This document shows positions 18,772 through 36,265 of a stretch of 64,000 bases of DNA, one piece after another. This DNA is from Lutraria lutraria. Taxonomy: Eukaryota; Mollusca; Bivalvia; Venerida; Mactridae. The notes under the pieces were generated by a model that saw nothing but the letters and a program-made list of their open reading frames with translations, was not told where the DNA came from and made no database searches. How positions within the stretch are numbered: position 1 is the stretch's first letter; each line of letters begins with the position of its first letter. The position numbers and the translations under genes were made by a program. The DNA lies in NCBI GenBank assembly GCA_964023205.1, contig OZ026835.1, forward strand, positions 11,428,414 to 11,492,413, read 5' to 3'.

Positions 18772-19074
18772 AGTAGTAATAGGCGGTACCCTGGCACCCT
18801 ACCTCCTGGCACCATATAGAAATATAGAGTAAATAGAATTAGGTCGGTGCCAGAAGTAAACAAAATTGTGACAAATTGGGACAAATTGGAATCCATATTG
18901 GGTGCTCAAAATAACATGAATTGAATTTTCGGAAACTTCTGGCACTGTGTGTGTTTTGTTATTTGTACTGTATAGACTAAATATTCATTTGAGACAATGA
19001 GAGAATTTTCTTTCGAAAAGACATGGTGGCCCTGAAAAGGGCCGTTGGTGGTCCTGAAAAGGACCGTTGGTGGT
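18772..19074. repeat. Left TIR of element 1 (303 bp)
   Basis: Inverse of 35963-36265. Contains subterminal CTGGCAC(C) motifs at 18791-18798, 18806-18813 and 18939-18945, the inverse GGTGCCAG at 18846-18853, and at the inner end the stem-loops described separately. Confidence 0.95.
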
Positions 19075-19087
19075 CCTGAAAAGGACC
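19006..19087 (-). terminator. Three histone-type 3' stem-loops plus HDE-like tract (left end)
   Basis: Read on the minus strand, 27 nt after the stop codon of the leftmost gene, come two GGTCCT-TTTC-AGGACC hairpins (19072-19087, 19050-19065) and one GGCCCT-TTTC-AGGGCC (19028-19043), spaced 22 bp. Each has a 6-bp stem, 4-nt loop and flanks CCAAC/ACCA, fitting the metazoan histone mRNA 3' consensus. GAAAGAAAA (19006-19014) follows 13 nt after the last hairpin, the place of a histone downstream element. The SLBP/U7 processing role is inferred. Confidence 0.75.
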
Positions 19088-19114
19088 GTTGGTTGGTAGC
19101 TGTTAGTCGGATCT

Positions 19115-19825
19115 TTATTTCTTTATTTCTTTACCATACTTGCCCCGAGGTTGTTTCTCAAGATCATGTTTTCGTTTCTTCGTTTCTGTCATATCCGGTT
19201 TCTTTTTGTCATGCTCCGGTTTCTTTTTCTCATGCTCATGTTTTCGTTTCTTTGAATCATACATAAACTGTACAGGTACAATCATTTCTTGTGGCTTAAA
19301 CCGTACTTCTTGATTTTTCATGAGTCTGACCATCTCTTGCATGACTTGATTCATCTGTACCATTTCTTCCTTGATACCTTGTAGAACAGACAATCCCGCT
19401 GTAGGCTTTGTATTAGACTGTGTTTTCGCCATAAGCTGTGTATTCGTCATAGTGGGTTGTACATCTACCATAGGCTGTGTATTCGTCATAGGGGGTTGTA
19501 CATCTACCATAGGCTGTGTATTCGTCATAGTGGGTTGTACATCTACCATAGGCTGTGTATTCGTCATAGTGGGTTGTACATCTACCATGGGTTGTATCGG
19601 CTGTACATCTACCATAGGCTGTACATCTACCATGGACTGTTGACTGTATTGGTTGTACAGTGGTTGACTGTATTGGCTGTACTGTGGCTGCCTATACTGT
19701 AGTTGACCGTACTTTGGCTGGTTGTACTTCGGCTGGTTGTAATGCATACCCGCATTCGGGTCTATTAACTCAGATGATTCTAGTGCTTCTCTCAATATAT
19801 CGTATGGCATGTTGAAGGACTCCAT
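19115..19825 (-). CDS. Low-complexity Q/Y/P-rich repeat protein, leftmost Polinton gene
   Basis: 236 aa of unknown function. The N-terminal third is rich in Tyr, Gln and Pro (repeated YNQPKY, YSQYSQP). The middle has tandem 13-residue repeats MVDVQPTMTNTQP, then a short predicted coiled coil (LQGIKEEMVQMNQVMQEMV). The tail is strongly basic with several KKRKH-type nuclear localisation signals. The start at MESFNMPYD is chosen because a TATA box lies 36 bp upstream and because the longer reading frame differs between the two elements before this point. Repeat number differs in element 2. The composition suggests a disordered, possibly condensate-forming nuclear protein; this is inference. Its 3' end uses histone-type stem-loops. 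Confidence 0.75.
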   Translation of the reverse strand: MESFNMPYDILREALESSELIDPNAGMHYNQPKYNQPKYGQLQYRQPQYSQYSQPLYNQYSQQSMVDVQPMVDVQPIQPMVDVQPTMTNTQPMVDVQPTMTNTQPMVDVQPPMTNTQPMVDVQPTMTNTQLMAKTQSNTKPTAGLSVLQGIKEEMVQMNQVMQEMVRLMKNQEVRFKPQEMIVPVQFMYDSKKRKHEHEKKKPEHDKKKPDMTETKKRKHDLEKQPRGKYGKEIKK

Positions 19826-19860
19826 GCTAGATAATGAAAAAATAGTGTCTGCGCCGGGGG

Positions 19861-19869
19861 TATTTATAC
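19861..19869 (-). promoter_or_regulatory. TATA box of leftmost gene
   Basis: GTATAAATA on the minus strand, about 36 bp before the chosen ATG at 19825; identical at 47430-47438 in element 2. Confidence 0.65.
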
Positions 19870-20031
19870 TTTTTGCCTGCACGCGCCAGTGTTCTATTAG
19901 GTCAAGGTCAATTGTGAGAAGTTTTTTTTTGAATACGTGTGACACTTCAAGTTTTTAGAAGTGTGACACTTCAAGTTTTTTTTGAACAAGTGTTTGACAC
20001 GTCAAGGTCAAGGTTATATTGTAGATATGCT

Positions 20032-20515
20032 TTGTACACATTATACTATCACAGCAATTTGAACACTGTACACTTAATACTATCACAGCAATTTGAATAC
20101 TGTACACATTATACTACCACAGCACTTTGCAGACTGTACACTTAATACTATCACAGCAATTTGAACACTGTACACATTATACTATCACAGCAATTTGAAC
20201 ACTGTACACTTAATACTATCACAGCAATTTGAATACTGTACACATTATACTACCACAGCACTTTGCAGACTGTACACTGAATACTATCACAGCAATTTGA
20301 ACACTGTACACTTCATACTATCACAGCAATTTGAATACTGTACACATTATACTACCACAGCACTTTGCAGACTGTACACTTAATACTATCACAGCAATTT
20401 GAACACTGTACACTTCATACTATCACAGCAATTTGAATACTGTACACTTAATACTATCACAGCAATTTGAATACTGTACACATTATACTATCACAGCACT
20501 TTGAATACTGTATAC
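20032..20515. repeat. 34-bp tandem array, 14 units
   Basis: Perfectly phased 34-bp units (ACTGTACACTTAATACTATC plus ACAGCAATTTGAAT) with ACTGTA starting every 34 bp from 20064 to 20506. Variants alternate TTAATAC/ATTATAC and AATTTGAA/ACTTTGCAG. It lies between the leftmost gene's promoter and the stem-loops of the next gene. Element 2 has only six units. Role unknown; enhancer or replication function is possible. Confidence 0.9.
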
Positions 20516-20640
20516 ATTTGTTGAAAATGATTGTACATCACATACTAACACTTATATTTGTGGGGGAAATACTTTGTACATCATAGCACTTATATTTGTT
20601 GAAAATGATTGTACACATCATACTATCACTTATATTTGTA
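20515..20640. repeat. Second short direct repeat next to the 34-bp array
   Basis: CACTTATATTTGTTGAAAAT and GATTGTACA recur two to three times at 20516-20640 with small differences; the same block is at 47833-47965 in element 2. Confidence 0.6.
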
Positions 20641-20736
20641 GGAAATGTTTAACTTACCTCACACCGTATATTTGTATTTGGTGTTATCAGATAGGAATGT
20701 AAATATAGTATGATAATATTGACAATATGAGAGTGA

Positions 20737-20795
20737 TTCTTTCTGAATTGTATGGGGGGCCCTGAAGAGGGCCGTTGGTGGTCCTGAAAAGGACC
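20737..20795 (-). terminator. Two histone-type 3' stem-loops plus HDE-like tract (internal)
   Basis: Minus strand, 19 nt after the stop of the coiled-coil/Cys gene: GGTCCT-TTTC-AGGACC (20780-20795) then GGCCCT-CTTC-AGGGCC (20758-20773). GAAAGAA (20737-20743) follows after 14 nt. This site is independent of the TIR, and hairpin polarity again matches the gene's sense strand. Confidence 0.72.
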
Positions 20796-20814
20796 GTTGG
20801 TGCTTGTATGGGGA

Positions 20815-21138
20815 TTAATGGCGTTGACCGCATCTCCCCATACAAGCGGGACACCACTTGTCCCATTTCTGGACATCCTTCGGGTCCGGTGTAGGTTGGT
20901 AGAGGTTCGACGGAACCTCTACCAGTTCATCTTCCCAGTTCTCTGGGGTTGATTCTTGAGGGGTATCCCCCCAGTCCTCTTCCCCAGAGCTGACCACAAC
21001 CTCCTCCGCGAACTTCTTTCCCTCTCTCAGGGTCTTCACCTCCAACCGCAGCTCTTCTAGCTGCATTTCCAGTTGTTCAATATACAACCCTAAGGTTGTA
21101 TACTTTCTCTTAATAATGTTAAGCGTGCGTTGCGACAT
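20815..21138 (-). CDS. Coiled-coil acidic protein with C-terminal Cys cluster
   Basis: 107 aa, function unknown. Residues about 5-45 form a heptad-rich helix (YIEQLEMQLEELRLEVKTL), residues 48-75 are acidic (SSGEEDWGD), and the C-terminus carries WCPACMGRCGQ, a CxxCxxxC cluster that could bind zinc or act as a redox CPAC. The gene is transcribed leftwards from a promoter shared with the YPDL gene and ends at two histone-type stem-loops. Element 2 has a near-identical copy. A regulatory (early) protein is a reasonable guess but not shown. Confidence 0.75.
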   Translation of the reverse strand: MSQRTLNIIKRKYTTLGLYIEQLEMQLEELRLEVKTLREGKKFAEEVVVSSGEEDWGDTPQESTPENWEDELVEVPSNLYQPTPDPKDVQKWDKWCPACMGRCGQRH

Positions 21139-21200
21139 CTTGATACAGAATGAAATTAGATCAAGGCAAGGTCACTGACTCTCATATGATACAAGGACTC

Positions 21201-21285
21201 TGATTGGTCCATTTTAACAGTATTTCATTGGTCTATTTTTAACGGTATTTCATTGGTCTATTTTACTGGCATTTCATTGGTCTGT
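21201..21285. promoter_or_regulatory. Bidirectional promoter with four CCAAT boxes
   Basis: Four tandem 24-25-bp units each holding ATTGGTC (ATTGG at 21203, 21227, 21252 and 21276), separated by TATTTTAACGGTATTTC-like spacers, lie between two divergent genes. Inverted CCAAT is the NF-Y site and is common in cell-cycle promoters including histone genes (established). Conserved in element 2 at about 48500-48585. Confidence 0.65.
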
Positions 21286-21340
21286 TCTAGGTCAGTGTTT
21301 TTCTCATGTTCCATAGCTCATTTATGTTTCATGATTCAAC

Positions 21341-21562
21341 ATGGACAACTGCTTGAAAAGTACTTCTGATGAACCTGAACAAGAAGATGTTTGGGTGGTC
21401 AAGATGGGTAATTTGTACCCAGACTTGTCTGAATTCCAAGATGTTAGTATTGTCAAGATGGATATCAAGATGGGTAATTTATACCCTGACCTTGCCATCT
21501 TTTATGATGAGGATTTGAGAGCCAACTATTGGCGATACCTATTTCTTGCAGAAATGCAATGA
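21341..21562 (+). CDS. Small protein with two YPDL (late-domain-like) motifs
   Basis: 73 aa, no recognised family. It contains an internal duplication, VKMGNLYPDLSEF and IKMGNLYPDLAIF, each presenting LYPDL. YPxL motifs bind the ALIX V domain and serve as ESCRT-recruiting late domains in budding viruses; YPDL also fits the YxxPhi clathrin-adaptor signal. The N-terminus is MDNCLKS here and MGNCLKS in element 2. The C-terminal part (about residues 58-73) is aromatic and conserved. Stop codon at 21560-21562 is followed after 10 nt by a histone-type stem-loop. Function (egress or trafficking) is inferred. Confidence 0.75.
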   Translation: MDNCLKSTSDEPEQEDVWVVKMGNLYPDLSEFQDVSIVKMDIKMGNLYPDLAIFYDEDLRANYWRYLFLAEMQ

Positions 21563-21572
21563 ATTACCCAAC

Positions 21573-21588
21573 GGCCCTTATTAGGGCC
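21573..21588 (+). terminator. Histone-type 3' stem-loop of the YPDL gene
   Basis: CCCAAC then GGCCCT-TATT-AGGGCC then ACCA, fitting the general histone consensus GGYYYUHHUHARRRCC. A purine-rich GCAAAGACAAAAGC lies about 33 nt downstream, farther than usual for a downstream element, so the HDE assignment is weak here. Confidence 0.65.
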
Positions 21589-21653
21589 ACCATATGTGTT
21601 AGATTCGTTTTATATCTCGAGCAAAGACAAAAGCATATTACATTGTCTATCAT

Positions 21654-21659
21654 TTTATT
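21654..21659 (-). terminator. Poly(A) signal of the zinc-knuckle gene
   Basis: AATAAA on the minus strand about 105 nt beyond the stop codon at 21764. In contrast to its neighbours, this gene has no stem-loop. Confidence 0.6.
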
Positions 21660-21763
21660 TTTGAAAACATTTATAAAGTACAACAAAGTACAACACAATA
21701 CAACTCACTTAGTCTCCAATTTATACACAATTGTCCAACACATTGTCCAACACATTGTCTGGA

Positions 21764-22114
21764 TTACACAAAGTCACTCACAGTTTTTGTTGGATTCTTT
21801 TTGTATTTACGTTTTTTCTTACTCTGTTCTGCGTCTTGTAGGTCGACCTGTTCACCTTGTTTCTTAGGACAGTCTGCGATGAAATGTCCTTGTTCATGAC
21901 AATAAAAACATTCATTGTTGAAGGGTTCCGTACAGCTGGTAGAATAATGTCCTTTCTTTCCACAACGATAACACTTGATATGATCCCATGTTACATTTTT
22001 CTGTCCACAGAGCTGATCCGCTAAGTTGTTAAGCTCTTTAATTTTCTTCTTTAATGAATACATCAAAGTTTGATCTCGGTTCTCTTCAACTTGGTTCATT
22101 TTAGGATCGCTCAT
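21764..22114 (-). CDS. Two-zinc-knuckle (CCHC) protein
   Basis: 116 aa. An N-terminal helical region (residues 15-36, SLKKKIKELNNLADQL) is followed by two CX2CX4HX4C knuckles: C48/C51/H56/C61 and C69/C72/H77/C82. The tail is rich in Lys (KKKRKYKK). Zinc knuckles of this type bind single-stranded nucleic acid in retroviral nucleocapsids and cellular proteins. It is divergent from polymerase B, with a TATA box at 22148-22155. A single-strand-binding or genome-chaperone role is inferred. Confidence 0.85.
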   Translation of the reverse strand: MSDPKMNQVEENRDQTLMYSLKKKIKELNNLADQLCGQKNVTWDHIKCYRCGKKGHYSTSCTEPFNNECFYCHEQGHFIADCPKKQGEQVDLQDAEQSKKKRKYKKNPTKTVSDFV

Positions 22115-22147
22115 GTTGAAATGATAAAAAACGGACGGAGCGTACGT

Positions 22148-22196
22148 CTTTTATAGAGTGTCACGCGTTGTGACCTTGAACCCGAAGTATAAAAAA
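22148..22196. promoter_or_regulatory. Divergent TATA promoter pair (zinc-knuckle / PolB)
   Basis: TATAAAAG on the minus strand (22148-22155) lies 34-41 bp before the zinc-knuckle ATG; TATAAAAAA on the plus strand (22188-22196) lies about 36 bp before the ATG at 22224. A direct repeat AAAAACGGACGGAG / AAAAAACGGCGGAG flanks the pair. The plus TATA box sets the polymerase start. Confidence 0.7.
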
Positions 22197-22223
22197 CGGC
22201 GGAGAAGTTTTAAGATCATAATC

Positions 22224-25200
22224 ATGTCAGATACCGACAGTACTAGTGGTGAGGATGAACCTCCAACTAAACGAAGTAAGGTTGAGCCTGTGCGCGACTA
22301 TTATGACATACAGTCACGCATGGAAAGAAAGTCAAGGAAATTCAAGACACAATCTAAAGTATATGATGTGACATTTCAGCCGTATAATCAATCGTTTGAA
22401 TTTACAAACCGGTTGTTTAATGATATGATGGACCAACTCTACAAGAGATGTGAAGTGAAGTCGAATGATCGAGTTCGAGTATCTATTCTACATCCTGATT
22501 TGGACTTTGGAATACATGTTCCGTTTAATAGGGCATCTCGTATTAGTGGAGATACATTGTTGGATGAAATTGAACGTGTGGCACAGAGTAACCGTCAATT
22601 TAAAATTCATGATGGGGCGGCACAGATGGAAATTACGCATATTGCTATGCCACAGGGATCCGGAAAGAAAACATTCAAGGCACCAAACTTATTCAGTATG
22701 CGAAAGTCAAAGACAAGTGTTGTGTGTATTGACAATAGTAAGGACTCTATGTGTTTAGCTAGATCGATTGTGGTAGGACGGTGCAAAGTACATGAAAATC
22801 AAACCCCGGAATGGAAAAAACGATGGCATCTAATACGTCATTCTAAGAAAAATCTTCAAAAATACGAAGCTGAAGTATTATTAAAGCAAGTGGGCATTTC
22901 ATCGGATCAGTCGTGCGGTATAGAAGAATACCAAAAACTACAAGACTATCTCTATCCGAGCTATGTGATTAAAATCCATCCACAACATTATGGAAGTGAA
23001 TTGTTATTCAAACCACCTGCTCTGACTGAAAAAAGTCGTGTGATTCATATCTTTCACCATGATAATCATTATGACTGTATTGTATCCATTACCGGATTTC
23101 TTGGGCGGAGTTATTATTGTGAATGGTGTGATGTCGGTTATGATCACCGTGAAGGACACCAGTGTAGCCATATTTGTCAGTGTTATGCTCACACCTTGTG
23201 CCCAGCAGGACAATCTATAAGATGTCCGGATTGCCGTCGACTATTTCAGAGTCAGGCATGTTTTGACAATCATAAAACAAAAACGGGAAAACAACGTAAG
23301 ACCATTTGTGAATCCGTATGGAATTGTAAGAAATGTGGGCAAAAGGTGGTAGGAACGAAACGGAATCACGTTTGCCCAGGGACAAAGAAATGCAGGTGTT
23401 GTAAAGCCATAGTAGGACCAGATCATGACTGTTACATTCCAACGTATGAACCACCCGATAGAAAACAACCAGAAGTACCATTCATCTTTTTTGATTTTGA
23501 ATGTCGTTTTGATTCTGGAGAACATATACCTAATTTTTGTGTGGCTCAACGTGCTTGTGGTGACTGTATGTGTAAGTCAGTGAAAGCTCCTTGTGAGTAT
23601 TGTGAAGAGGTGAATGAAGCCAGACAAATGACATTCCGTGGTGAAAATACGTTACAACAATTCTGTACTTGGCTATTCCTCCCTACCCATCGAGGATCGA
23701 CAGTGATAGCCCACAATGCTCAAGGTTATGACGCTCAGTTTATTCTTAGATATGTGGTTACTCAGGGGACGGCGAAACCCCAGTTGATTATGAATGGTAG
23801 TAAAATCATTCAATTGAGAGTGCATGGAATACGCATGATTGACTCCCTCAGTTTCCTGAGTATGCCTCTCTCCGGTTTTCCCAATACATTTGGACTGACC
23901 GAGTTAGCCAAAGGATGGTTTCCATTCTATGCAAACACCCTAGAGTATCAAGATTATGTGGGACCTTATTTGCCGCTACACTTTTACAAGCCGGATAGTA
24001 TGAAACCAGAGCGACGTGAAGAGTTTTTAACCTGGTACAATGAAAGAAAAGGTGACGTATTTGATTTTCAAAAGGAAATGGAGAAATACTGTCAATCGGA
24101 TGTGGACATTTTAAGGCGCGGGTGTGGAGAATTTCGTCAACAATTATTGGACAGTGATCAAATAGATCCATTTACTGAAGCTACCACATTAGCTCAAGTG
24201 TGTAACAAAGCCTGGCGCAAAAATTCCATGCCACCTCATAGTTTAGCCGTGATTTCTGATGCCGGGTATCCCAATAAAACCCGGTATTCCATGAAAGGCA
24301 TACGTTGGCTACAAATGATGGCTGTCACAGAAGAGATACATATTCGGCATGCCTTGAATAACAAAGGCGAAGTCAAAATTGGACCTTATTACGTGGATGG
24401 CTATTGTCAAGAGACCAACACCGTGTATGAATTCATGGGATGTTGGTACCATGGGTGCCCCACCTGTTTTCCTAACCGGGAAACCATCAATCCATATACT
24501 TTGAGAAGCATGCAACAGGCCTATCACGACACATATAAGCGACTGGAGTCTTTGAAAGAACAGGGACATCCTGTTGTGGTCATGTGGGAATGTGAATTTG
24601 ATCAGCGTTGTCAAAAGGATCCTGCCTATAAGACAAGAGTGGAACGATTCTATCATGGTCAAGACCCGATTCAACCCAGGGAAGCTTTGTTCGGAGGTCG
24701 TACGAATGCCGTCCGACTGTATCATGAAGTAGACAACGACCAAGAAATCAAATATGTCGATATTTGTTCTCTCTATCCGTATGTGAACAAGTACAGGGCT
24801 TATCCGATAGGCCATCCAGTGATCATGAGTCAAGAACAAATTGATCAACAGCATATTGAGAAATACAAAGGACTGATTAAATGCCGTGTTCTACCCCCGC
24901 AAGATTTATGGATGCCTGTCTTACCCATACACTGTAATAGCAAAATGGTGTTTACGCTATGCCGTACTTGTGCTGAGAAGGAGATGGATTATTGTACACA
25001 TTCACCGTATGAACGATTCTTGTATGGCACATGGACTCATGTTGAATTGGCTAAAGCTATTGCTTTAGGCTATCAAGTATCAAAAGTGTATCATGTATGG
25101 CACTGGGATGAATGGAGTACGGACGTCTATCGGCAATACATTGATAAATACTTGAAAATGAAACAAGAGGCTAGTGGATATCCTCCAGGGGTGGATACGG

Positions 25201-26015
25201 AAGAGGCTCAAGATAAATTTAAACAAGATTATTTTGAAGCAGAAGGAATTCGTTTGCAACAGGTGGAGAAAAATCCAGGAAAACGAGCTTTTGCCAAAAC
25301 CATGCTGAATTGTCTCTGGGGTAAAAATGCTCAAACTAACCTCTTGCCTAAAACAGAGTATGTTCATCGATTGGACCAGTTCTACGGAATACTGAACGAT
25401 CCTAAAAAGTCTGTGAAATATGCAGAGTGTTTTGATCATGATGAATTCATGTTAATGAATTATACTGATGAATCGGACAAAGCAGACCCTCATTCATCAG
25501 CCAATCCTGTGGTGGCTTCATTTGTGACGGCTTATGCTCGATTAGAACTGTACAAAGTGCTTGAACCTCTAGGAAAGAGAGTATTGTATTTTGACACAGA
25601 CAGTTGTATGTACATTCATGACCCTGATGGCTATAATGTTCCTATTATCTCCAGTCGATTGGGAAAATGGACAGATGAGGTACCAAAGGGTCGTATTGTG
25701 AGATATGTCGCTTTAGGTCCAAAGAACTATGGCTATGAATACATTGAAAACGGTGAACTCCATCAAAAATGCAAAGTGAAAGGCATTACGTTAGACTACA
25801 ATGCCACTCAACAAGTGAATTTCAATACGATGGTGGATTGTGTGAAAGACAGACATCATTATTCGACCGTAGTTGAATATGCTTCTCGGATTAAACGTCA
25901 TAAGGACAGAACCGTGACCAGTGAGAAACAAGTCAAAACATTTCGTTCGGTATATACCAAACGTATTGTGGTCGAGAATCATATGACTGTGCCTTATGGT
26001 TATCTACATGACTGA
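22224..26015 (+). CDS. PolB: Polinton DNA polymerase B (protein-primed type)
   Basis: 1263 aa family-B polymerase with 3'-5' proofreading, expected to replicate the element by protein priming. Order: acidic start; a CIDNSKDSMCLARSIVV segment typical of Polinton/adenovirus-type polymerases; Cys/His clusters (CEWCDVGYDHREGHQC, CPDCRRLF, CKKCGQKV, CRCCKAIV) that look zinc-binding; Exo I FDFE (D424, E426), Exo II AHNAQGYDAQFI, Exo III YCQSDVDIL; motif A DICSLYP (D846), motif B KRAFAKTMLNCLWGK, motif C YFDTDS (D1124, D1126). An ATG 22 codons upstream (22158) is in frame, but the TATA box supports 22224. All catalytic residues are present. Confidence 0.95.
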   Translation: MSDTDSTSGEDEPPTKRSKVEPVRDYYDIQSRMERKSRKFKTQSKVYDVTFQPYNQSFEFTNRLFNDMMDQLYKRCEVKSNDRVRVSILHPDLDFGIHVPFNRASRISGDTLLDEIERVAQSNRQFKIHDGAAQMEITHIAMPQGSGKKTFKAPNLFSMRKSKTSVVCIDNSKDSMCLARSIVVGRCKVHENQTPEWKKRWHLIRHSKKNLQKYEAEVLLKQVGISSDQSCGIEEYQKLQDYLYPSYVIKIHPQHYGSELLFKPPALTEKSRVIHIFHHDNHYDCIVSITGFLGRSYYCEWCDVGYDHREGHQCSHICQCYAHTLCPAGQSIRCPDCRRLFQSQACFDNHKTKTGKQRKTICESVWNCKKCGQKVVGTKRNHVCPGTKKCRCCKAIVGPDHDCYIPTYEPPDRKQPEVPFIFFDFECRFDSGEHIPNFCVAQRACGDCMCKSVKAPCEYCEEVNEARQMTFRGENTLQQFCTWLFLPTHRGSTVIAHNAQGYDAQFILRYVVTQGTAKPQLIMNGSKIIQLRVHGIRMIDSLSFLSMPLSGFPNTFGLTELAKGWFPFYANTLEYQDYVGPYLPLHFYKPDSMKPERREEFLTWYNERKGDVFDFQKEMEKYCQSDVDILRRGCGEFRQQLLDSDQIDPFTEATTLAQVCNKAWRKNSMPPHSLAVISDAGYPNKTRYSMKGIRWLQMMAVTEEIHIRHALNNKGEVKIGPYYVDGYCQETNTVYEFMGCWYHGCPTCFPNRETINPYTLRSMQQAYHDTYKRLESLKEQGHPVVVMWECEFDQRCQKDPAYKTRVERFYHGQDPIQPREALFGGRTNAVRLYHEVDNDQEIKYVDICSLYPYVNKYRAYPIGHPVIMSQEQIDQQHIEKYKGLIKCRVLPPQDLWMPVLPIHCNSKMVFTLCRTCAEKEMDYCTHSPYERFLYGTWTHVELAKAIALGYQVSKVYHVWHWDEWSTDVYRQYIDKYLKMKQEASGYPPGVDTEEAQDKFKQDYFEAEGIRLQQVEKNPGKRAFAKTMLNCLWGKNAQTNLLPKTEYVHRLDQFYGILNDPKKSVKYAECFDHDEFMLMNYTDESDKADPHSSANPVVASFVTAYARLELYKVLEPLGKRVLYFDTDSCMYIHDPDGYNVPIISSRLGKWTDEVPKGRIVRYVALGPKNYGYEYIENGELHQKCKVKGITLDYNATQQVNFNTMVDCVKDRHHYSTVVEYASRIKRHKDRTVTSEKQVKTFRSVYTKRIVVENHMTVPYGYLHD

Positions 26016-26075
26016 CCTTGACCTTTGAGCTAGAGGCCTAGAACAAGTCATCTAAAATTCATTATTCATAAAGAC

Positions 26076-27303: not shown

Positions 27304-27315
27304 ACTTGTTACACA

Positions 27316-27325
27316 AATAAATAAA
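27316..27325 (+). terminator. Poly(A) signals closing the polB block
   Basis: AATAAATAAA gives two overlapping AATAAA hexamers 12 nt after the stop at 27303. Confidence 0.65.
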
Positions 27326-27365: not shown

Positions 27366-28013
27366 ATGGAGTCCAGTTTACTTTTTAAGCATCCTTGCAA
27401 TATGTTTATCGCAGGCCCTAGTGGCTCTGGTAAAACACAATTCGTAAAAAAGGTGTTGGAATACAAATCAGATTTGTTTCAAGTAGTACCTGAGCGTATT
27501 GTATGGTGTTACAAAGAATGGCAAGTAGCCTATGCACAATTACAAGAACAAGAACCTAGTATTCGGTTCATACAGGGGATACCTGACGAGGATGAAGAGA
27601 TAGTAGAGGATACATCCATTCCTCATTTAATTATATTTGATGACATGCTTGGTGATAAAGATGAAGAGAAAATCAAATTATGGTTTACACGAAAAGGTCA
27701 CCATCGTAATGCTAGTGTGATCTACATTACACAAAACATGTTTCAACAATCGAAAGCCAGTCGTACCCTGAGTTTAAATGCACATTACATGATCTTATTT
27801 CAAAACACAAGAGATAAAGGACAAATCAAAGTGTTGGCGAATCAAATTCAATTGCCACACTTGTTACCCGCTTATCAAGATGCTATCTCTACACCTCATG
27901 GGTATTTAGTGATTGACTTTCACCCTCAAACACCAGACAGTTATCGGTTAAGAACTGATATTTTTCATCACTGGATCACTGGAGAAAAACGTGGGCCAGT
28001 TGTGTATATATAA
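27366..28013 (+). CDS. Genome-packaging ATPase (FtsK/HerA-type)
   Basis: 215 aa. Walker A GPSGSGKT (residues 17-24) and Walker B HLIIFDDM (87-94, D92/D93), then YITQNMFQQ, a sensor-like region typical of the A32/FtsK-HerA packaging ATPases of Polintons, virophages and large DNA viruses. It would drive DNA into the capsid. The protein seems identical in element 2, a sign of purifying selection or very recent divergence. Confidence 0.92.
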   Translation: MESSLLFKHPCNMFIAGPSGSGKTQFVKKVLEYKSDLFQVVPERIVWCYKEWQVAYAQLQEQEPSIRFIQGIPDEDEEIVEDTSIPHLIIFDDMLGDKDEEKIKLWFTRKGHHRNASVIYITQNMFQQSKASRTLSLNAHYMILFQNTRDKGQIKVLANQIQLPHLLPAYQDAISTPHGYLVIDFHPQTPDSYRLRTDIFHHWITGEKRGPVVYI

Positions 28014-28047
28014 ACATCGTTTACTCATATAAGATCATTCAGTCATC

Positions 28048-29211: not shown

Positions 29212-29249
29212 AAGCTGTGAAGAAGTAAAAACAGGTATTATTTGACATA

Positions 29250-29621
29250 ATGGCACCAAAGAGACCACTCCTGCATAAATACGGACATCTGGTTTTGGGT
29301 TTAACTCAAGCCCCAGATGGGTTAAGAAGAAAGATGATACATGGAGCATCTAAAGAAATGATTCAATGTGTGTCAGAATGCTGTCAGAATGTTTTAAAAG
29401 GCAATGTTGCCTTATCCCCCTCTCAAAAGCAAAGGTTGAAGTCCAAGCGTCAACATCTCCGCACTTTAGCAGATAAAAGAGTATCCATTCAAAAAAAGAA
29501 ACGTGTGTTGAATCAAAAAGGAGGATTATTTCCATTACTGGCTCTTGCTCCAATCATTGCTAAAGCTGTTGCTGCAGGAGCACTCAGTGGAGGTGTTGCC
29601 ACACTGGTGAAAAAGCTATGA
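29250..29621 (+). CDS. pX-like small basic protein with hydrophobic Gly/Ala tail
   Basis: 123 aa. A conserved helical N-terminal half (RRKMIHGASKEMIQCVSECC) leads to a basic stretch (KKKRVLNQKGG) and a hydrophobic tail (LFPLLALAPIIAKAVAAGAL). LNQKGG-LFP resembles the processed or membrane-active pX/mu-type segments reported for Polintons and adenoviruses. Expected in the virion. The stop overlaps the next start (ATGA). Confidence 0.7.
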   Translation: MAPKRPLLHKYGHLVLGLTQAPDGLRRKMIHGASKEMIQCVSECCQNVLKGNVALSPSQKQRLKSKRQHLRTLADKRVSIQKKKRVLNQKGGLFPLLALAPIIAKAVAAGALSGGVATLVKKL

Positions 29622-30367
29622 AGAAAATGGCTATCGTCCCGTTCAAAATGCTAGAAGAGATGAATCGATGGAAAACAGAACAACGACCACGTTTACCTCC
29701 TCCCCCGCAAGTCAGTCAAACATCCGATTTACAGAAACAAATGGGAGACGTATTACAAAATGAATCGTTGTCTGAATCAGAAAAAGCACAACACTATGGG
29801 CAAGTCTTGCAAAAGTTTCAACTGTCTCATCAAAAAGCACGTGAACCGGCTACTCTGGCTGCACCAGTTGCACCGGGTGCACCGGTTGTTCCAGCTGCTC
29901 AAGGTGCACAAGGGGCACAAGCGGCTCCTGCTACATTGACGGATCGGATTCTTGAAAGTGTTCCTACTACCATGCGTCGAAAAACTCAACTTTTATTACA
30001 CTTTCTACAAAATCATCCCCACATGTCATGGAATGATCAAGGGATGTTGGAATATCATGGAAAACCAATACAAGGATCCAACATTATTGATTTGGTCAAT
30101 GATGTCATACGTCATAGAAAAGGGTCGGAGCCTAGAGGATGGGAACAGTTTTCTAGTGGACTAAGAGATGTCAATGTACCACAAGAAGTGATAGGAAATA
30201 AACGGAGATGGTCATGGATGCAAAAAGCAGACGATTCGGAGGAAGATGATGAATTCTTTGATAGTTTTGTTGAGCCTCCTTCACCTATAAGTAAACGGAT
30301 GAAAGCAGAACCTATAAGTAAACCTGTCAAACAGATGAAAGCAGAACCTAAGTGGGAACCCTACTAG
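29618..30367 (+). CDS. Polinton-specific conserved protein (WND/NVP domain)
   Basis: 249 aa. N-terminal coiled region, an Ala/Pro/Gln linker (residues about 80-108), then a C-terminal domain with ILESVPTTMRRKTQLLLHFL, SWNDQGML, GSNIIDLVNDVIRHR and NVPQEVIGNKRRW, a pattern I know from many invertebrate Polinton proteins without a defined role. The tail has PISKRMKAEP repeats. Overlaps the pX-like gene by 4 nt and the integrase frame by up to 16 nt. Confidence 0.75.
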   Translation: MKKMAIVPFKMLEEMNRWKTEQRPRLPPPPQVSQTSDLQKQMGDVLQNESLSESEKAQHYGQVLQKFQLSHQKAREPATLAAPVAPGAPVVPAAQGAQGAQAAPATLTDRILESVPTTMRRKTQLLLHFLQNHPHMSWNDQGMLEYHGKPIQGSNIIDLVNDVIRHRKGSEPRGWEQFSSGLRDVNVPQEVIGNKRRWSWMQKADDSEEDDEFFDSFVEPPSPISKRMKAEPISKPVKQMKAEPKWEPY

Positions 30368-30372
30368 ACAAC

Positions 30373-31446
30373 ATGAACAAAAAGGTAGACAGTCTGTTAC
30401 ATCAGATTTATTATGATCCCCACCATCCGGCTGGTTTTGGTGGGGTAGAACGTCTTACTACAGCAGCTCGAACTCAACTGAAATCCATTACGCCAAGTCA
30501 AGTGCGATCCTGGTTGAAGGGGCAAAAGACCTATACCCTGCACAAACCTATCCGTAGGGTATTCTCGAGACGGAAAACGATTGTGGGTGGTATTGATCAT
30601 CAATGGCAAGCTGATTTGGCAGACATGCAATCCTTGGCTCAGTACAACACCCCTTATCGATATTTGTTGTGTGTCATTGACGTGTTTTCAAAATATGCTT
30701 GGGTCGTTCCCCTCAAGGATAAAACGGGGCTCACATTGGTGGAAGCGTTTCGCTCTATTCTTAAAACGAGACAACCTAAAGCGTTGCAAACCGATAAAGG
30801 AACAGAATTCAAGAATCAAAGGTTTCAACAGTTTTTAGACAAAGTAGGGATTCATTATTTTACGACTGAAAACCCAGAAACTAAGGCTAGTATAGTGGAA
30901 CGTTTTCAACGGACCTTAAAATCACGCATGTGGAAATACTTTACGCATCATAAAACACGAAGGTATATTCAGGTATTGTCTGATCTCGTGCATGCCTATA
31001 ATCATCGTGTTCATCGTAGTATACAAATGGCACCCGTATCCGTAAATGAGAATAACGAATCTCAAGTGGCCTTGACCTTGTATGGAAAATCAAGAAAGAA
31101 AGCGTCGACGACCCTTCATGTGGGAGATATTGTTCGTATCAATAAAACAAAACGTACATTTGATAAAGGTTATCTACCTAACTGGACCACTGAACTGTTT
31201 AAAGTGATCCAAGTCAAAAAGACCTCTCCTGCTACTGTGAAATTGACTGATTTAGACGGAGAACCCATTTTGGGTTCGTTTTATTTCTCTGAAGTACAGG
31301 TTATAAAAGATGATGCTATCTATGAAATTGAATCAGTGCTCGCACATCGCCAGAGTAAGGTAGACGGAAGACGAGAAATTAAAGTACATTGGAAAGGTTA
31401 TCCTTCGAAATTTGACAGTTGGATTCCCGAATCCCATCTCGTTTAG
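30373..31446 (+). CDS. INT: Integrase (retroviral DDE type) with C-terminal chromodomain
   Basis: 357 aa from MNKKVDSLLHQ (an ATG at 30352 would add seven residues and overlap the previous gene). The DDE core is numbered here from that upstream ATG: D88 in WQADLADM, D148 in LQTDKGTEF and E183 in KASIVERFQRTL. The last about 45 residues (YEIESVLAHRQ, HWKGYPSKFDSW) are a chromodomain, which may direct integration to methylated histone tails. It catalyses insertion of the element, consistent with the 6-bp duplication. Confidence 0.94.
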   Translation: MNKKVDSLLHQIYYDPHHPAGFGGVERLTTAARTQLKSITPSQVRSWLKGQKTYTLHKPIRRVFSRRKTIVGGIDHQWQADLADMQSLAQYNTPYRYLLCVIDVFSKYAWVVPLKDKTGLTLVEAFRSILKTRQPKALQTDKGTEFKNQRFQQFLDKVGIHYFTTENPETKASIVERFQRTLKSRMWKYFTHHKTRRYIQVLSDLVHAYNHRVHRSIQMAPVSVNENNESQVALTLYGKSRKKASTTLHVGDIVRINKTKRTFDKGYLPNWTTELFKVIQVKKTSPATVKLTDLDGEPILGSFYFSEVQVIKDDAIYEIESVLAHRQSKVDGRREIKVHWKGYPSKFDSWIPESHLV

Positions 31447-31460
31447 TTAATAAATACATC

Positions 31461-31706
31461 ATGTCTCAAACCGATACGGCCAGTGTGGTAGTGACTGCCT
31501 CAGAGCAAACCAAATTGTGTGAACCCAAAAATAAGGTCACTTTTTTGTCACAAATTGTAGTGGTATTTATTATTATTACCGTATCGCTATTTAATTTGTG
31601 TTTTCAACGACCCGATCGAGAATTGTGGCTTCTGCTTTTAAGTAGTTCTCTAGGTTATATTCTACCGAATCCCTCCTTGAAATTCAATAAACCTAAATCA
31701 ACATGA
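31461..31706 (+). CDS. Small membrane protein conserved in Polintons
   Basis: 81 aa from MSQTDTASVV; the earlier in-frame ATG at 31419 lies inside the integrase. Two hydrophobic segments: IVVVFIIITVSLFNLCF (about 30-46) and WLLLLSSSLGYILPNP (about 54-69). The LLSSSLGYILPNP wording recurs in invertebrate Polintons. Membrane location is predicted; role unknown. The stop overlaps the next ATG. Confidence 0.75.
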   Translation: MSQTDTASVVVTASEQTKLCEPKNKVTFLSQIVVVFIIITVSLFNLCFQRPDRELWLLLLSSSLGYILPNPSLKFNKPKST

Positions 31707-32545
31707 GTTCGTTTTACATCACACTCATGAGTGATAGCTCTATGGATTTATTCCAAGACAATACGCAATGTTGTTTTCGTACCAAACTGACAAAACCCAT
31801 CCATCTCAATAAACAAGATTGGGAAATTGCCTTAGTGGAAATGATTGTTCCTAGTCAGGTCATTAATGTCACTGAAGAAGAGCGACATTTCTACATTGTC
31901 ACACATGATCCTGTCCTGGGTAAGGCCTTAGAAAACTTTGAGACCTATTGTACTCTCCCCAATAAAGAAGAAAAAGGTGTACGACTTTGTATTCCTGTAG
32001 GAACTTATGTCACACCCCAACATTTGATCGAGACGATTGACTTTACCGTGAAAGATCAATTAGGTAAAATATTTAAACAGAAAGGCCTTCGATTTACCAT
32101 GGGTTTTTCAGGACAAAGTAAACGCGCAAAACTGGACAGTTCGGATCAACTAGGCATTCAGTTTCATCCTCACATGTTTATTAAACTGGGTGGAGCCCCT
32201 GATAGTTCTTCGACCATCTTTTTTAAAGACACTCCAGATCCGTTTCCTCATGGCGTAGATATTAACATGGGTCATAATCATTTGTTTGTTTATTCCGACC
32301 TTGCGTCTTATACCTATTTGGGAAACATAGAAGCCCCCATCTTACGTGTAGCTCCATTTGATCCGAGAACGAAAGCAGGAACTAACCCTCATATTCATTT
32401 CGAGTTCTTGAATTTACACTATGTACCACTGGCTAAAGCCGACTTTGACACCATCACTATCCATATAAGGGGTGACACTGGCCAGTCTATTCAGTTTATT
32501 CATGGGAAGTCTATGGTGAAACTACACCTACGTCAAAGACAATGA
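31703..32545 (+). CDS. Minor capsid (penton-like) protein
   Basis: 280 aa. The N-terminus SFYITLMSDSSMDLFQDNTQ and DWEIALVEMIVP matches the conserved Polinton protein assigned as the single-jelly-roll minor capsid protein. It precedes the major capsid gene by two frames, the usual arrangement. The assignment rests on motif recognition and position. Confidence 0.75.
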   Translation: MSSFYITLMSDSSMDLFQDNTQCCFRTKLTKPIHLNKQDWEIALVEMIVPSQVINVTEEERHFYIVTHDPVLGKALENFETYCTLPNKEEKGVRLCIPVGTYVTPQHLIETIDFTVKDQLGKIFKQKGLRFTMGFSGQSKRAKLDSSDQLGIQFHPHMFIKLGGAPDSSSTIFFKDTPDPFPHGVDINMGHNHLFVYSDLASYTYLGNIEAPILRVAPFDPRTKAGTNPHIHFEFLNLHYVPLAKADFDTITIHIRGDTGQSIQFIHGKSMVKLHLRQRQ

Positions 32546-32907
32546 TACCTACTTACCAAGGTCAACCTCGACAATATGGACACGGACTTGGATCTATGTT
32601 TAAGAAAGCCATGAAAAGAATCATGCCTTTACTGAATCCATTTGTGAAATCTGGAGTTCGCACCTTGAAAAAAGAAGGACTCCAGCAAGGAAAAGCCGCT
32701 ATCAAAGATATCTTGACAGGATCAAACGCTAAACAAGTAATACGAAAACGTGGAGCCTCTGTGTTAAAAGATGTGGGTGAATCCTTGCTACATGCCGTGG
32801 CCAGCCCTAAAAGACGTATAAAGAGCAAACCAGTCAAGAAAAGACCTCATTCGAAACTTCATCATCGCCGAGTTAAGCAGGCCAGACCTCTTGATATTTT
32901 CGATTAA
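32542..32907 (+). CDS. Basic late protein with GHGLGSMF motif
   Basis: 121 aa, pI clearly basic. YQGQPRQYGHGLGSMFKKAM followed by KEGLQQGKAAIKDIL and a C-terminal KRRIKSKPVKKRPHSK tail is the layout of a widespread Polinton late protein placed between minor and major capsid genes. A minor virion or scaffolding role is inferred. Starts inside the stop region of the previous gene (4-nt overlap). Confidence 0.75.
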   Translation: MIPTYQGQPRQYGHGLGSMFKKAMKRIMPLLNPFVKSGVRTLKKEGLQQGKAAIKDILTGSNAKQVIRKRGASVLKDVGESLLHAVASPKRRIKSKPVKKRPHSKLHHRRVKQARPLDIFD

Positions 32908-32909
32908 TC

Positions 32910-34208
32910 ATGATGCAACACGGTTCCTGTGAATGTAGTAAGACAGAGTTGGATGTGTCTGTTGTGCCACCTACCATGACAGCCATGCAAGAAGGTCAAT
33001 GGACTGAGCATTATCCCATTTCTGCCCTGGACAATAATGCTCCGATTGAATTTGTGATTCCTGCACAGACAGAAAAATGGACAGATCTGAATCAATCTTA
33101 CCTGTACCTAAAACTCAAAATTATACAGGCAGATGGTACAGACCTAGCGGGCGACAGTGAAATTGCTACCGTCAACAATTTCTTTCACAGCATGTTCTCA
33201 AGCATTGATGTGTACCTGAATAATAAACTGATCACCAGCAATGCGGACACGTATGCCTATCGGGCATACATAGAAAATTTACTCTCCTTCACCTCAAGCT
33301 GTAAAGACACTCAGCTTCAGGCGTTAGAGTTATGGGCTGAAGACACCGCTGGTCATATGCTCGAAAAAGTACATGACGGGGATAACAAGGGCTATGGTAA
33401 GAGACGTGCTCGTGTCCATCAAAGTCGTGTGGTGGAACTATGTGGACGGCTTCATTTGGATCTGATGATGCAAGATAAATATTTACCCAATGGTATGGAA
33501 ATACGCTTAAGACTAAACAAAGCGTCACCTCAATTCTGTCTCATGAGTACTTCACCGGGTAAAATCAAGTTTCTAGAAGCAGGATTTAATGTAAGAACAG
33601 TAGATTTACTGCCAGTGGTAGCCAATCAACTCAATCAACAGATTGCTCAACATAACATGAAAATCCCCATCCGACGAACTGAAGTAAAAACATTTACGAT
33701 TCCTAACGGTCAACGATCCAAGATTGAAGATCATTTATTTCAAGGTCAATTGCCAAAACGTCTTATCATCGGTATGGTAAGAAATGGAGACATGAATGGA
33801 GACATGGCTACCAACCCCTTTGAGTTCCGTCATTTTACACTGAATCATCTAGAAGTCAGCATTGACGGAAAAAGTATTCATAACAAAGCGTTTCAACCCA
33901 ATTTTGAAACGGGAGAAGTTCTAAGATCCTACATGTCACTCTATCAAGCGACAGGAGCTCTTGGTCTCAATCGTTCATTTGGATTGAGCATGAATGATTA
34001 TCGGAACGGATACACACTCTGGGGGTTGGACTTGACAGCAGATCAAGGTTGCGAGGAAGGTCAACTCCATCCTATAAAAACGGGCAATCTGAGATTGGAA
34101 TTTCACTTTGGAACAGCACTTGCACAAGCCATCAACGTGATTGTATTTGCGGAATACGACAATCAAATTGAAATCAATCAATTCAGAGAAGTGCTTCTAG
34201 ATTATTAA
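32910..34208 (+). CDS. MCP: Major capsid protein (double jelly-roll)
   Basis: 432 aa. FFHSMFSSIDVYLNNKLIT and YAYRAYIENLLSFTSS are the hallmark of the Polinton major capsid protein, homologous to hexon-type double jelly-roll proteins; it would form the icosahedral shell. The first of two adjacent ATGs is taken. Most differences from element 2 fall in residues 143-164 and 213-217, probably exposed loops. Confidence 0.9.
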   Translation: MMQHGSCECSKTELDVSVVPPTMTAMQEGQWTEHYPISALDNNAPIEFVIPAQTEKWTDLNQSYLYLKLKIIQADGTDLAGDSEIATVNNFFHSMFSSIDVYLNNKLITSNADTYAYRAYIENLLSFTSSCKDTQLQALELWAEDTAGHMLEKVHDGDNKGYGKRRARVHQSRVVELCGRLHLDLMMQDKYLPNGMEIRLRLNKASPQFCLMSTSPGKIKFLEAGFNVRTVDLLPVVANQLNQQIAQHNMKIPIRRTEVKTFTIPNGQRSKIEDHLFQGQLPKRLIIGMVRNGDMNGDMATNPFEFRHFTLNHLEVSIDGKSIHNKAFQPNFETGEVLRSYMSLYQATGALGLNRSFGLSMNDYRNGYTLWGLDLTADQGCEEGQLHPIKTGNLRLEFHFGTALAQAINVIVFAEYDNQIEINQFREVLLDY

Positions 34209-34209
34209 G

Positions 34210-34674
34210 ATGGAAGACATGGATATTGAACACCTGGAAAAAGGACAAGACTACGAAATGAAGTTATTGGCGTATCCTTGTTGTACAAGTTCAAGGACGG
34301 ACTTTTTACAAGAGTGCTTGAATCATCACGTCACAGAAGCACTCCAATCTTTAATTTATAATCAAGTGCATAAAGACTGTTATGGTTGTCGAGTGAATCA
34401 TCCTAGTCAAGTACAACATGTACTCTGCTTATACACGAATACGGAAGAGTGGACAGAACTTTACATTCAAAAAGCGATTCAACGTTTGGACGTGTTCAAG
34501 GTCATGGAAAAGTGGTATCCTGAATTAGTGACCTTGACCGATAGTGAAAAAGGAGACGCGTGTCGATTATGGATTCAATTTAAAGAAGAACTCACTCAGA
34601 ATCAGTTCATAGATCAATGGATCAGTGTTTGGGCTGAACGTGTCAACAGAAATTGGCATTATGGAGACGAATGA
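34210..34674 (+). CDS. Conserved Polinton protein with CxGC/NHPSQ motif
   Basis: 154 aa. HKDCYGCRVNHPSQVQHVLC holds paired Cys and His residues that may bind zinc; the rest is helical with LYIQKAIQRLDVFKVMEKW. The NHPSQ wording is common in invertebrate Polintons, function not known to me. Lies directly after the capsid gene and overlaps the protease start by 14 nt. Confidence 0.72.
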   Translation: MEDMDIEHLEKGQDYEMKLLAYPCCTSSRTDFLQECLNHHVTEALQSLIYNQVHKDCYGCRVNHPSQVQHVLCLYTNTEEWTELYIQKAIQRLDVFKVMEKWYPELVTLTDSEKGDACRLWIQFKEELTQNQFIDQWISVWAERVNRNWHYGDE

Positions 34675-35251
34675 ACTACAATACCTATTAGATCATTCAC
34701 CGTTATTAAAACCACTACATGCTCGTGTTTGTGCCAAAGATCAATTACCTTCAGAGAAACCGCATGACGTGAAAGCCTATATTGTGAATACCCATAACGG
34801 GAATCAACGTGGAGAACACTGGGTGGCTCTTTATTTAAAAGACAATAAAGCAGTGTACTTTGATTCCTACGGATTACCTCCTTTCGAAGAGATTCTAACC
34901 TTTGTGAAAAAACATGCCAACAAAACTTATCTGTGGAATGCCATGAGAATACAAGGCGATATGTTACCGGTGTGTGGTGTGTATTGTCTATCCGCTTTGG
35001 ATTTTATCTCACGTGAATGTGACTTGAACCAGATACTGTTAACCCGATTCAAACCGGACATGTATGGAAAAAATGACACTTATGTGACGCATTGGTTTCA
35101 ACAATATTATGGTACTTATTACATGCATGCTCAATATGTGAACAAGTGTGGACAAAAGTGTTGTGCTCAACGTAACTCTAGACCAGAAGGTCACAACCGT
35201 TTGTATCATAGTATCACACATAGAAATACAACTCTTTATGGTGATCATTAA
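34661..35251 (+). CDS. PRO: Adenain-like cysteine protease
   Basis: 196 aa from METNELQYLL. Catalytic layout of the Ulp1/adenain family: H53 in GEHWVAL, D68 in YFDSYG, Q98 and nucleophile C105 in VCGVYCL. It would mature virion proteins, for example at Gly-Gly sites such as that in the H1-like protein. The C-terminal extension (NKCGQKCCAQRN) is Cys-rich. A longer frame opens at 34625 but lies in the preceding gene. Confidence 0.9.
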   Translation: METNELQYLLDHSPLLKPLHARVCAKDQLPSEKPHDVKAYIVNTHNGNQRGEHWVALYLKDNKAVYFDSYGLPPFEEILTFVKKHANKTYLWNAMRIQGDMLPVCGVYCLSALDFISRECDLNQILLTRFKPDMYGKNDTYVTHWFQQYYGTYYMHAQYVNKCGQKCCAQRNSRPEGHNRLYHSITHRNTTLYGDH

Positions 35252-35294
35252 ACAATGTTACTGTTTCATGTTGTTACTGTTTTCTTGTTACAAA

Positions 35295-35300
35295 AATAAA
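35295..35300 (+). terminator. Poly(A) signal closing the structural gene block
   Basis: AATAAA in TTACAAAAATAAAAG, about 45 nt after the protease stop. Confidence 0.65.
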
Positions 35301-35387
35301 AGTTTAGAAAAACTGAAACTAGGTGTCTGTTATCTTTTTTCTAAGTTCATAAAAATCAAGCACATGTCTGCGCGGTACATTGGCGCG

Positions 35388-35440
35388 TGACGCCATCCAA
35401 CCCTAGGGTGACGTCATCCAAGCGATATGACGTCATCCAA
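35388..35440 (+). promoter_or_regulatory. Triple CRE-type promoter element
   Basis: Three units TGACGYCATCCAA at 35388, 35409 and 35428; the last two contain the full palindrome TGACGTCA (CREB/ATF site). A GC-rich GGGCGGCGC follows at about 35452. Identical at 62700-62752. Confidence 0.7.
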
Positions 35441-35491
35441 CCACGAGAGTGGGCGGCGCTTCAACAGAAAAATACTCCGTCTTACAATACA

Positions 35492-35959
35492 ATGCCTCAT
35501 TTCATTCTGAGAACTCAAACACTCAAGATGGAGGCTTTATTCAATGAACTCAAAACAGCAAAACAACTGACTGAAAAACAGAGCAGGGTATGGCGTTCAA
35601 TCAGTCGCTTAGCGGCTAGCATTGTTAGAAAAAGGGAACGTGATCTTCAATTCATTGGTGAGACTTTGAATACCATTGAAACCAATCGATTTCATCATAG
35701 AGAAGAATTATCTCAATTTCGAGATCAAGTCAGAGAAAGGCAGCGAGATGCTCGGGAACGAACGGTGAATAGACAACGGGAACAACAACAAGAAGAAGAG
35801 CATTGGCGTATCATCACTACCGCTCAAGTTGAGTACACGGAACAACCACCAGAACAGGAATGGTCCTGTGGGGATTCAACATGCAGGCTCTGCTATCCCC
35901 CACCAGACTGCCAATGCGAACTATGTACCCAACCAGATCAGTCAGCAAACACGGTTTAA
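35492..35959 (+). CDS. Coiled-coil protein with C-terminal CXCX2C cluster, rightmost gene
   Basis: 155 aa from MPHFILRTQ. An open frame extends upstream to 35387 but runs through the CRE repeats, so the later ATG is preferred. Residues about 15-105 are a long charged helix/coiled coil (RDQVRERQRDARERTVNRQ). The C-terminus CGDSTCRLC-YPPPDCQCELC has a CXCX2C cluster like small regulatory or oncoprotein-type proteins of several small DNA viruses; homology is not shown. The 3' end has two histone-type stem-loops within the right TIR. Confidence 0.7.
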   Translation: MPHFILRTQTLKMEALFNELKTAKQLTEKQSRVWRSISRLAASIVRKRERDLQFIGETLNTIETNRFHHREELSQFRDQVRERQRDARERTVNRQREQQQEEEHWRIITTAQVEYTEQPPEQEWSCGDSTCRLCYPPPDCQCELCTQPDQSANTV

Positions 35960-35962
35960 AAA

Positions 35963-36265
35963 ACCACCAACGGTCCTTTTCAGGACCACCAACGGCCCTT
36001 TTCAGGGCCACCATGTCTTTTCGAAAGAAAATTCTCTCATTGTCTCAAATGAATATTTAGTCTATACAGTACAAATAACAAAACACACACAGTGCCAGAA
36101 GTTTCCGAAAATTCAATTCATGTTATTTTGAGCACCCAATATGGATTCCAATTTGTCCCAATTTGTCACAATTTTGTTTACTTCTGGCACCGACCTAATT
36201 CTATTTACTCTATATTTCTATATGGTGCCAGGAGGTAGGGTGCCAGGGTACCGCCTATTACTACT
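35963..36265. repeat. Right TIR of element 1 (303 bp)
   Basis: Inverse of 18772-19074. Its inner end begins 4 nt after the stop codon of the rightmost gene, so that gene's 3' untranslated region is TIR sequence. Confidence 0.95.
35972..36031 (+). terminator. Two histone-type 3' stem-loops plus HDE-like tract (right end)
   Basis: GGTCCT-TTTC-AGGACC (35972-35987) and GGCCCT-TTTC-AGGGCC (35994-36009), with CCAAC before and ACCA after. GAAAGAAAA (36023-36031) follows after 13 nt. The first hairpin starts 12 nt after the stop codon. Confidence 0.75.

Follow-up and report, generated by a model that had tools for sequence, protein, structure and literature searches.

A Polinton family in the genome of the bivalve Lutraria lutraria very probably uses the host pathway that forms histone mRNA 3' ends (SLBP, and probably U7) for four genes of its end cassettes, here designated g1-g4. 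This assessment is based on sequence comparisons that started from a 64-kb stretch of DNA (the window; C4:11428414-11492413, in an assembly that comprises 728.5 Mb and 71 contigs), which contains two Polintons, elements 1 and 2. Short hairpins lie just past the stop codons of g1-g4, and their identification as histone-type 3' stem-loops is strongly supported, because the family includes matches to the Rfam histone model over its cut-off, hairpins identical by letter to that of host histone H1 and stems identical to those of the host core histones, because the host encodes SLBP, and because the hairpins recur in other copies. That transcripts of g1-g4 are cleaved there, have no poly(A) tail and are timed to S phase is inferred.

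Hairpins downstream of g1-g4

The stem of a histone 3' stem-loop has two G-C pairs, three Y-R pairs and one U-A pair, and its loop reads U-N-U-N. The window was searched for GG followed by three pyrimidine-purine pairs and a closing pyrimidine-A pair around a Y-N-Y-N loop. This rule gave 15 sites, all of them inside the two elements, on the sense strand and just 3' of the stops of g1-g4, with a distance of 11-28 nt between stop and first hairpin in element 1 (coordinates in Table 1). A more specific pattern with two mismatches was found on average 0.08 times (largest number 2) in 100 shuffled windows; in the window itself it gave 17 rows, 15 for the sites above and two for the TATT site read antisense. 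Host DNA beyond the element boundaries (52,502 bases) contained no hairpins. An earlier, sequence-only reading of this DNA had proposed that four genes per element carry hairpins just past their stops, and the 15 sites vs 0.08 expected bear this out.

The histone rule is satisfied by letter at 14 of the 15 sites, and at the other one the loop starts with C. Read on the sense strand, the loops are TTTC, CTTC or TATT; TTTC and TATT had been listed before, but the CTTC loop of one g2 hairpin in element 1 had been missed. The flanks had been given as CCAAC and ACCA. CCAAC is indeed present 5' of every hairpin (15/15), but ACCA follows 13 of the 15 only, and after the stem of the final g2 hairpin CCCC or CCCA is found in its place. 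The proposal that hairpin polarity follows the sense strand of the upstream gene, on both strands, agrees with all 15 sites. However, the hairpins of g1 and g4 fall within perfect terminal inverted repeats (TIRs) or on their boundary, so their opposite polarity amounts to one observation and not two, and only three sites per element are independent (TIR, g2 and g3).

Tandem hairpins occur at g1, with three in element 1 and two in element 2. In a comparison of the TIRs of the two elements the hairpins and the histone downstream element (HDE) were identical, and the outer part exhibited many changes and gaps. Folding predictions for stretches of g4, g2 and g3 reproduced these hairpins (z -4.1, -3.5 and -3.9, -2.1); in the triple g1 array, copies 1 and 2 were predicted to pair with each other instead. 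A hairpin that had been assigned to the zf-CCHC gene at 176 nt is the g3 hairpin read antisense.

The Rfam model of the histone 3' UTR (untranslated region) stem-loop (RF00032, Histone3; cut-off, i.e. gathering score, 34 bits) matched four TIR sites in the window at 35.8 bits, over the cut-off, and five further sites below it (28.4-31.7 bits), namely those of g2 and g3 and, in element 1, the first hairpin of g1. A purine-rich GAAAGA is located 3' of the last hairpin, at 13 nt in the TIRs and at 13-14 nt after g2. The sequence-only reading had depended both on hits of the histone model and on a non-random placement of the hairpins relative to genes, and both were found.

Host histone genes and further hairpin-bearing copies

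The host histone cluster is located at C6:24990598-25100771 and consists of units of ~6.83 kb. The 3' ends of H2B, H2A, H1, H3 and H4 of the cluster, plus one further H3 end, were compared with those of the elements; H4 was identified by eye from the start of its protein, its Pfam core-histone match being below the cut-off. The H1 gene (194 aa; linker histone PF00538, 3.8e-31) carries the hairpin GGTCCTTTTCAGGACC 31 nt past its stop, and this hairpin is identical to the GGTCCT hairpins of both elements in 16 of 16 letters. The ends of H2A, H2B, H3 and H4 all read AAC-GGCCCT-TTTT-AGGGCC-AC, with a stem and inner flanks (AAC, AC) equal to those of the TIR terminal hairpin of the elements. The assignment of the hairpins to the form of the metazoan histone mRNA 3' end, previously made from the window only, is thus supported by the model score as well as by alignment with the host's own genes. 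Purine-rich elements are unevenly distributed in the host, with AAGAAAG after H2A, AAGAGAC after H3 and, on visual inspection, no clear one after H4 or H1. The RNA-binding domain of host SLBP (PF15247) was found on C10 in two pieces of 60.9 and 34.5 bits, both above the cut-off.

A genome-wide RF00032 search, in which 75 of 131,090 first-look candidates were scored, returned 85 matches, 37 of them over the cut-off. Twenty-two of these 37 form 11 pairs that are 16.7-17.8 kb apart and all (11/11) face outward, as TIR hairpins would, and 15 are single. The search missed the window's four TIR sites and five histone genes, and the match list is therefore a lower bound. Control genomes gave matches at E up to 10 in 14 of 14 cases but over the cut-off in none of 14, so only matches above the cut-off or read in their context were used.

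All 20 element ends that were fetched carry the terminal hairpin, beside g4 in ten and beside g1 in ten, as expected since this hairpin was the selection criterion. The g2 and g3 hairpins, which were not selection criteria, are kept in 10 of 10 g1-side ends. Variants of the second g2 stem include a U-G pair in one copy (L055) and a change on both sides in another (L062). Conservation was profiled over 12 copies (the ten fetched ones and the two window elements), and for g2 and g3 the coding end served as the anchor; a first TIR profile, which was anchored on the terminal hairpin and hence 100% there by construction, was set aside. CCAAC plus hairpin was invariant in 21 of 21 columns both for the first g2 hairpin and for g3, and the second g2 hairpin in 13 of 16. 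Invariance was 180/212 (g2) and 145/183 (g3) in the coding ends, and dropped to 44/177 and 56/187 further downstream.

The same class of stem-loop was also found in a second gene family of this genome. At C12:22849393-22915426 a non-histone gene of 109 aa is repeated in tandem, with at least 37 hairpin matches spaced ~1.5 kb apart. Three 10-kb pieces of the array contained 17 sense hairpins (AAAACGGCCCTTTTCAGAGCCAACC), 16 of them 39-40 nt past the 109-aa frame; they scored 28.4-31 bits with RF00032, below the cut-off, and have one unpaired position. No Pfam family matched the 109-aa protein over the cut-off. It has 227 relatives, and the organism-named ones among the best 120 come from Mya arenaria and Pinctada imbricata; the gene represents a conserved bivalve family with histone-like 3' ends. 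The array supports the idea that the bivalve histone 3'-end pathway may serve more than histones.

Proposed mechanism and alternative explanations

With the histone pathway in use, transcripts of g1-g4 would continue just past the stop into a set of one to three stem-loops of the SLBP type, and SLBP would bind the hairpin. The U7 small nuclear ribonucleoprotein would probably pair with the purine-rich GAAAGA located 13-14 nt downstream in the TIRs and at g2, and the pre-mRNA would be cut after ACCA. The product would be a non-polyadenylated mRNA with a short 3' UTR, and its stability and translation would be mostly limited to S phase.

Several observations weigh against this interpretation. 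The flanks of the host H1 hairpin (CCACAAA before, ATTC after) are unlike the CCAAC and ACCA of the elements, and the loop of the TIR terminal hairpin is TTTC (CTTC and TATT being found elsewhere) vs TTTT in the host core histones. With an identical H1 hairpin but TTTT loops in the core histones, the element hairpins fall inside the host repertoire but are not a recent copy of a core-histone 3' end. The downstream element of g3 is weak, only CAAAGA at a distance of 33 nt. Among the other copies, one (L045) lacks the upstream terminal hairpin and in another (L059) this hairpin is broken, and covariation in the stems is weak, with 84 of 500 shuffles as high. The near flanks are invariant to a large extent as well (for g2, 14/14 in the spacer and 46/60 in the next 60 nt; for g3, 37/40 in the next 40 nt and then 45/60), and since the copies are also closely related, conservation of the hairpins partly reflects shared ancestry. 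Outside this group, a GTDB search with an alignment of the major capsid protein (MCP) identified three fragments of distant Polintons (38-41% identity in the MCP) in metagenome-assembled genomes (MAGs) whose titles name an Escarpia endosymbiont, a Bathymodiolus symbiont and a Breoghania, and RF00032 matched none of the three, although the fragments may lack gene ends. The expectation that related Polintons carry the hairpins therefore holds for the close copies but not for these fragments. Finally, an AATAAA overlaps the stop codon of g1. Host H2B has an AATAAA in the same position and host H2A an ATTAAA just before its hairpin, so AATAAA alone does not mark a poly(A) gene; for g1 it still counts as a point against.

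This AATAAA leads to the alternative that survives best, although we regard it as unlikely: the hairpins would be histone-type signals that serve mainly stability, translation, termination or SLBP sequestration, and most transcripts would still end at poly(A) sites. The tandem hairpins, which exceed the need of a single cleavage, point in the same direction, and so do histone genes of C. elegans that have both a hairpin and AATAAA, as described in PMC1924863. On the other hand, none of the four hairpin genes of element 1 has A(A/T)TAAA within 300 nt past the stop vs 6 of the 14 other genes, and the HDE-like GAAAGA lies 13-14 nt past the last hairpin in the TIRs and at g2. The sequence-only reading had stated that core and structural genes use AATAAA, which is right in part only; in two of the six genes the motif lies inside the next gene, and most of the other eight directly abut or overlap the next gene.

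A viral hairpin rule is less probable still. In mimivirus and Sputnik-type virophages, hairpins right after genes set the 3' ends as polyadenylation signals, according to PMC6723459. Under such a rule the element hairpins would mark 3' ends polyadenylated by viral machinery, and Polintons are related to virophages. However, the element hairpins obey the histone rule in loop, stem pattern and inner flanks, with an exact or near match to the histone genes of the host itself, and no RNA polymerase or poly(A) polymerase was matched among the 18 element-1 open reading frames (ORFs) scanned. The mimivirus and virophage hairpins are not known to have a fixed loop or flank sequence.

It is equally hard to believe that the hairpins are DNA-level features (part of the terminal repeat, or a replication or packaging site) with a coincidental likeness to histone signals: the g1 and g4 copies do sit in TIRs, where tandem hairpins could serve replication, but those of g2 and g3 are located 2.0-2.8 kb inward from the left end of element 1, likewise sense and right after stops, and the identity with the host H1 hairpin and the above-cut-off RF00032 match would be left unexplained.

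Structure, relatives and biological meaning of the elements

The elements exhibit hallmarks of a Polinton, i.e. long TIRs and a 6-bp target-site duplication (TSD) in both, and PolB, a retrovirus-like integrase and an A32-like ATPase among the Pfam matches, and they are 91.0, 97.2 and 97.2% identical over three aligned blocks (Table 1). The polymerase frame, a single ORF of 1285 aa in element 1, is split in element 2 (49462-53319) into ORFs of 389 and 889 aa. Pfam searches gave no match for g1, g2 and g4, and a sub-cut-off match of g3 was dismissed as not real; no convincing PHROGs match was obtained for g1-g4. The protein of g4, for which two relatives were found, is predicted to form a single long helix with a low-confidence tail that contains Cys. 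Polintons are also expected to encode a double jelly-roll capsid protein, and the putative capsid gene was assigned from the names of relatives alone. Several of the best 120 of its 433 relatives are named 'F54H12.2-like', a name used for Maverick capsids, and the organism-named ones among these 120 come from the bivalves Mercenaria, Saccostrea, Ostrea and Crassostrea, together with one bacterial-MAG protein. No Pfam protease was matched among the element-1 ORFs scanned, but a divergent adenain-like protease would escape this search. Between g1 and g2 both elements contain 34-nt tandem repeats (19910-20576 and 47441-47903), the number of units in element 1 being roughly double that in element 2. 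Fragments of a host FMO-like gene, repeated mostly ~1.28-1.29 kb apart, are found between the two elements (37649-41641).

Table 1. Polinton features in the window, with positions counted from its first letter.
Feature	Position	Strand	Details
Element 1 (Polinton)	18772..36265	.	TIRs 18772-19074 / 35963-36265, 303 nt, perfect match; TSD TACGCC (read from flanks)
RF00032 match, left TIR	19002..19048	-	terminal hairpin, ACCA and HDE-like TCGAAAGAAAAT; 35.8 bits vs cut-off 34
Three tandem g1 hairpins, 22-nt period	19028-19043, 19050-19065, 19072-19087	-	outer two in left TIR, inner one straddles TIR edge
g1, element 1	19115..19945	-	276-aa ORF, of low complexity on visual inspection; no Pfam match; stop overlapped by AATAAA
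Two g2 hairpins (TTTC, CTTC loops)	20758-20773, 20780-20795	-	followed by HDE-like CAGAAAGAATC; 31.2 bits, under cut-off
g2, element 1	20815..21138	-	107-aa ORF; no Pfam match
g3, element 1	21341..21562	+	73-aa ORF
g3 hairpin, TATT loop	21573..21588	+	31.0 bits, under cut-off
Family B DNA polymerase, element 1	22158..26015	+	PF03175, 2.4e-38; without hairpin
A32-like packaging ATPase	27366..28013	+	PF04665
Integrase with chromodomain	30352..31446	+	PF00665 and PF00385; AATAAA 3 nt past stop
Putative MCP	32910..34208	+	433 relatives; assigned from their names alone
g4, element 1	35492..35959	+	155-aa ORF; ORF list starts at upstream GTG, 35387
Two g4 hairpins, right TIR	35972-35987, 35994-36009	+	GGTCCT-TTTC-AGGACC, then GGCCCT-TTTC-AGGGCC
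RF00032 match, right TIR	35989..36035	+	terminal hairpin and HDE-like GAAAGAAAAT; 35.8 bits
Element 2 (second copy, separate insertion)	46406..63538	.	TIRs ~258 nt; TSD CACAAG, with a one-base uncertainty at the edges
Element 2 g1 (ORF 46681-47541), two hairpins and HDE	46591..46654	-	hairpin starts 46617, 46639; RF00032, rule search
Element 2 g2 (ORF 48121-48444), two hairpins and HDE	48039..48101	-	hairpin starts 48064, 48086; 31.7 bits
Element 2 g3 hairpin	48877..48892	+	31.0 bits
Element 2 g4 (ORF 62699-63277), two hairpins and HDE	63290..63353	+	hairpin starts 63290, 63312; RF00032, rule search

Searches for further relatives gave little. A sub-cut-off RF00032 match of 24.6 bits in the three whole MAGs that hold the distant Polinton fragments was discarded, since a bacterial control matched too. 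On a contig of the mussel-symbiont MAG, a sub-threshold match to the twister-P1 ribozyme (28.9 bits, gathering score 67.2) was noted at L005:11734-11798, ~0.5 kb past the capsid-like match, and may be due to chance. In IMG/VR a PolB query gave no match, and none of 15 stretches obtained with the MCP alignment was a relative. The pattern GGYYCTTTTCAGRRCCAC was found there at three loci in 2.9 million contigs, and these were put down to chance, as RF00032 matched none of the three (E up to 0.1) and their ORFs were not Polinton-like by eye. No report of a Polinton with histone-type 3' ends was found in the best-matching open-licence PMC literature, and the words histone, stem-loop, terminator and polyadenylation do not occur in PMC10120064.

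The genes g1-g4 resemble metazoan replication-dependent histone genes (RF00032, SLBP/U7) in their 6-bp GG-YYY-U stem, 4-nt loop and short 3' UTR and in a purine-rich downstream element in the TIRs and at g2, and the host core histones in particular in having AAC before and AC after the hairpin. Unlike histone genes, they do not encode histones, often have one to three tandem hairpins per gene and reside on a mobile, virus-like carrier. The carrier itself is like a Polinton/Maverick of the adintovirus-like kind, with PolB, integrase, A32-like ATPase, a putative capsid gene, long TIRs and a 6-bp TSD, and the present family differs in its histone-type 3' ends, which no Polinton in the best-matching open-licence PMC papers was found to have and which RF00032 did not match in the three distant fragments. 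If the mRNAs of g1-g4 are indeed formed in this way, no earlier family of viral or transposon genes that code for non-histone proteins is, to our knowledge, known to have ends of this kind. The nearest viral analogue is the hairpin of virophages, which in the account cited above is a polyadenylation signal, whereas the hairpins of the present elements have the sequence of the host histone signal.

It is likely that a mobile element has here taken over the histone mRNA pathway, so that the mRNAs of four of its genes would be SLBP-bound and non-polyadenylated and its programme partly tied to the S phase of the host. If so, the link would be to the time of DNA replication, when the element could replicate or integrate. 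A Polinton with histone ends would provide the SLBP pathway with a natural reporter, and it would point to a way in which such an element could limit part of its expression to replicating cells.

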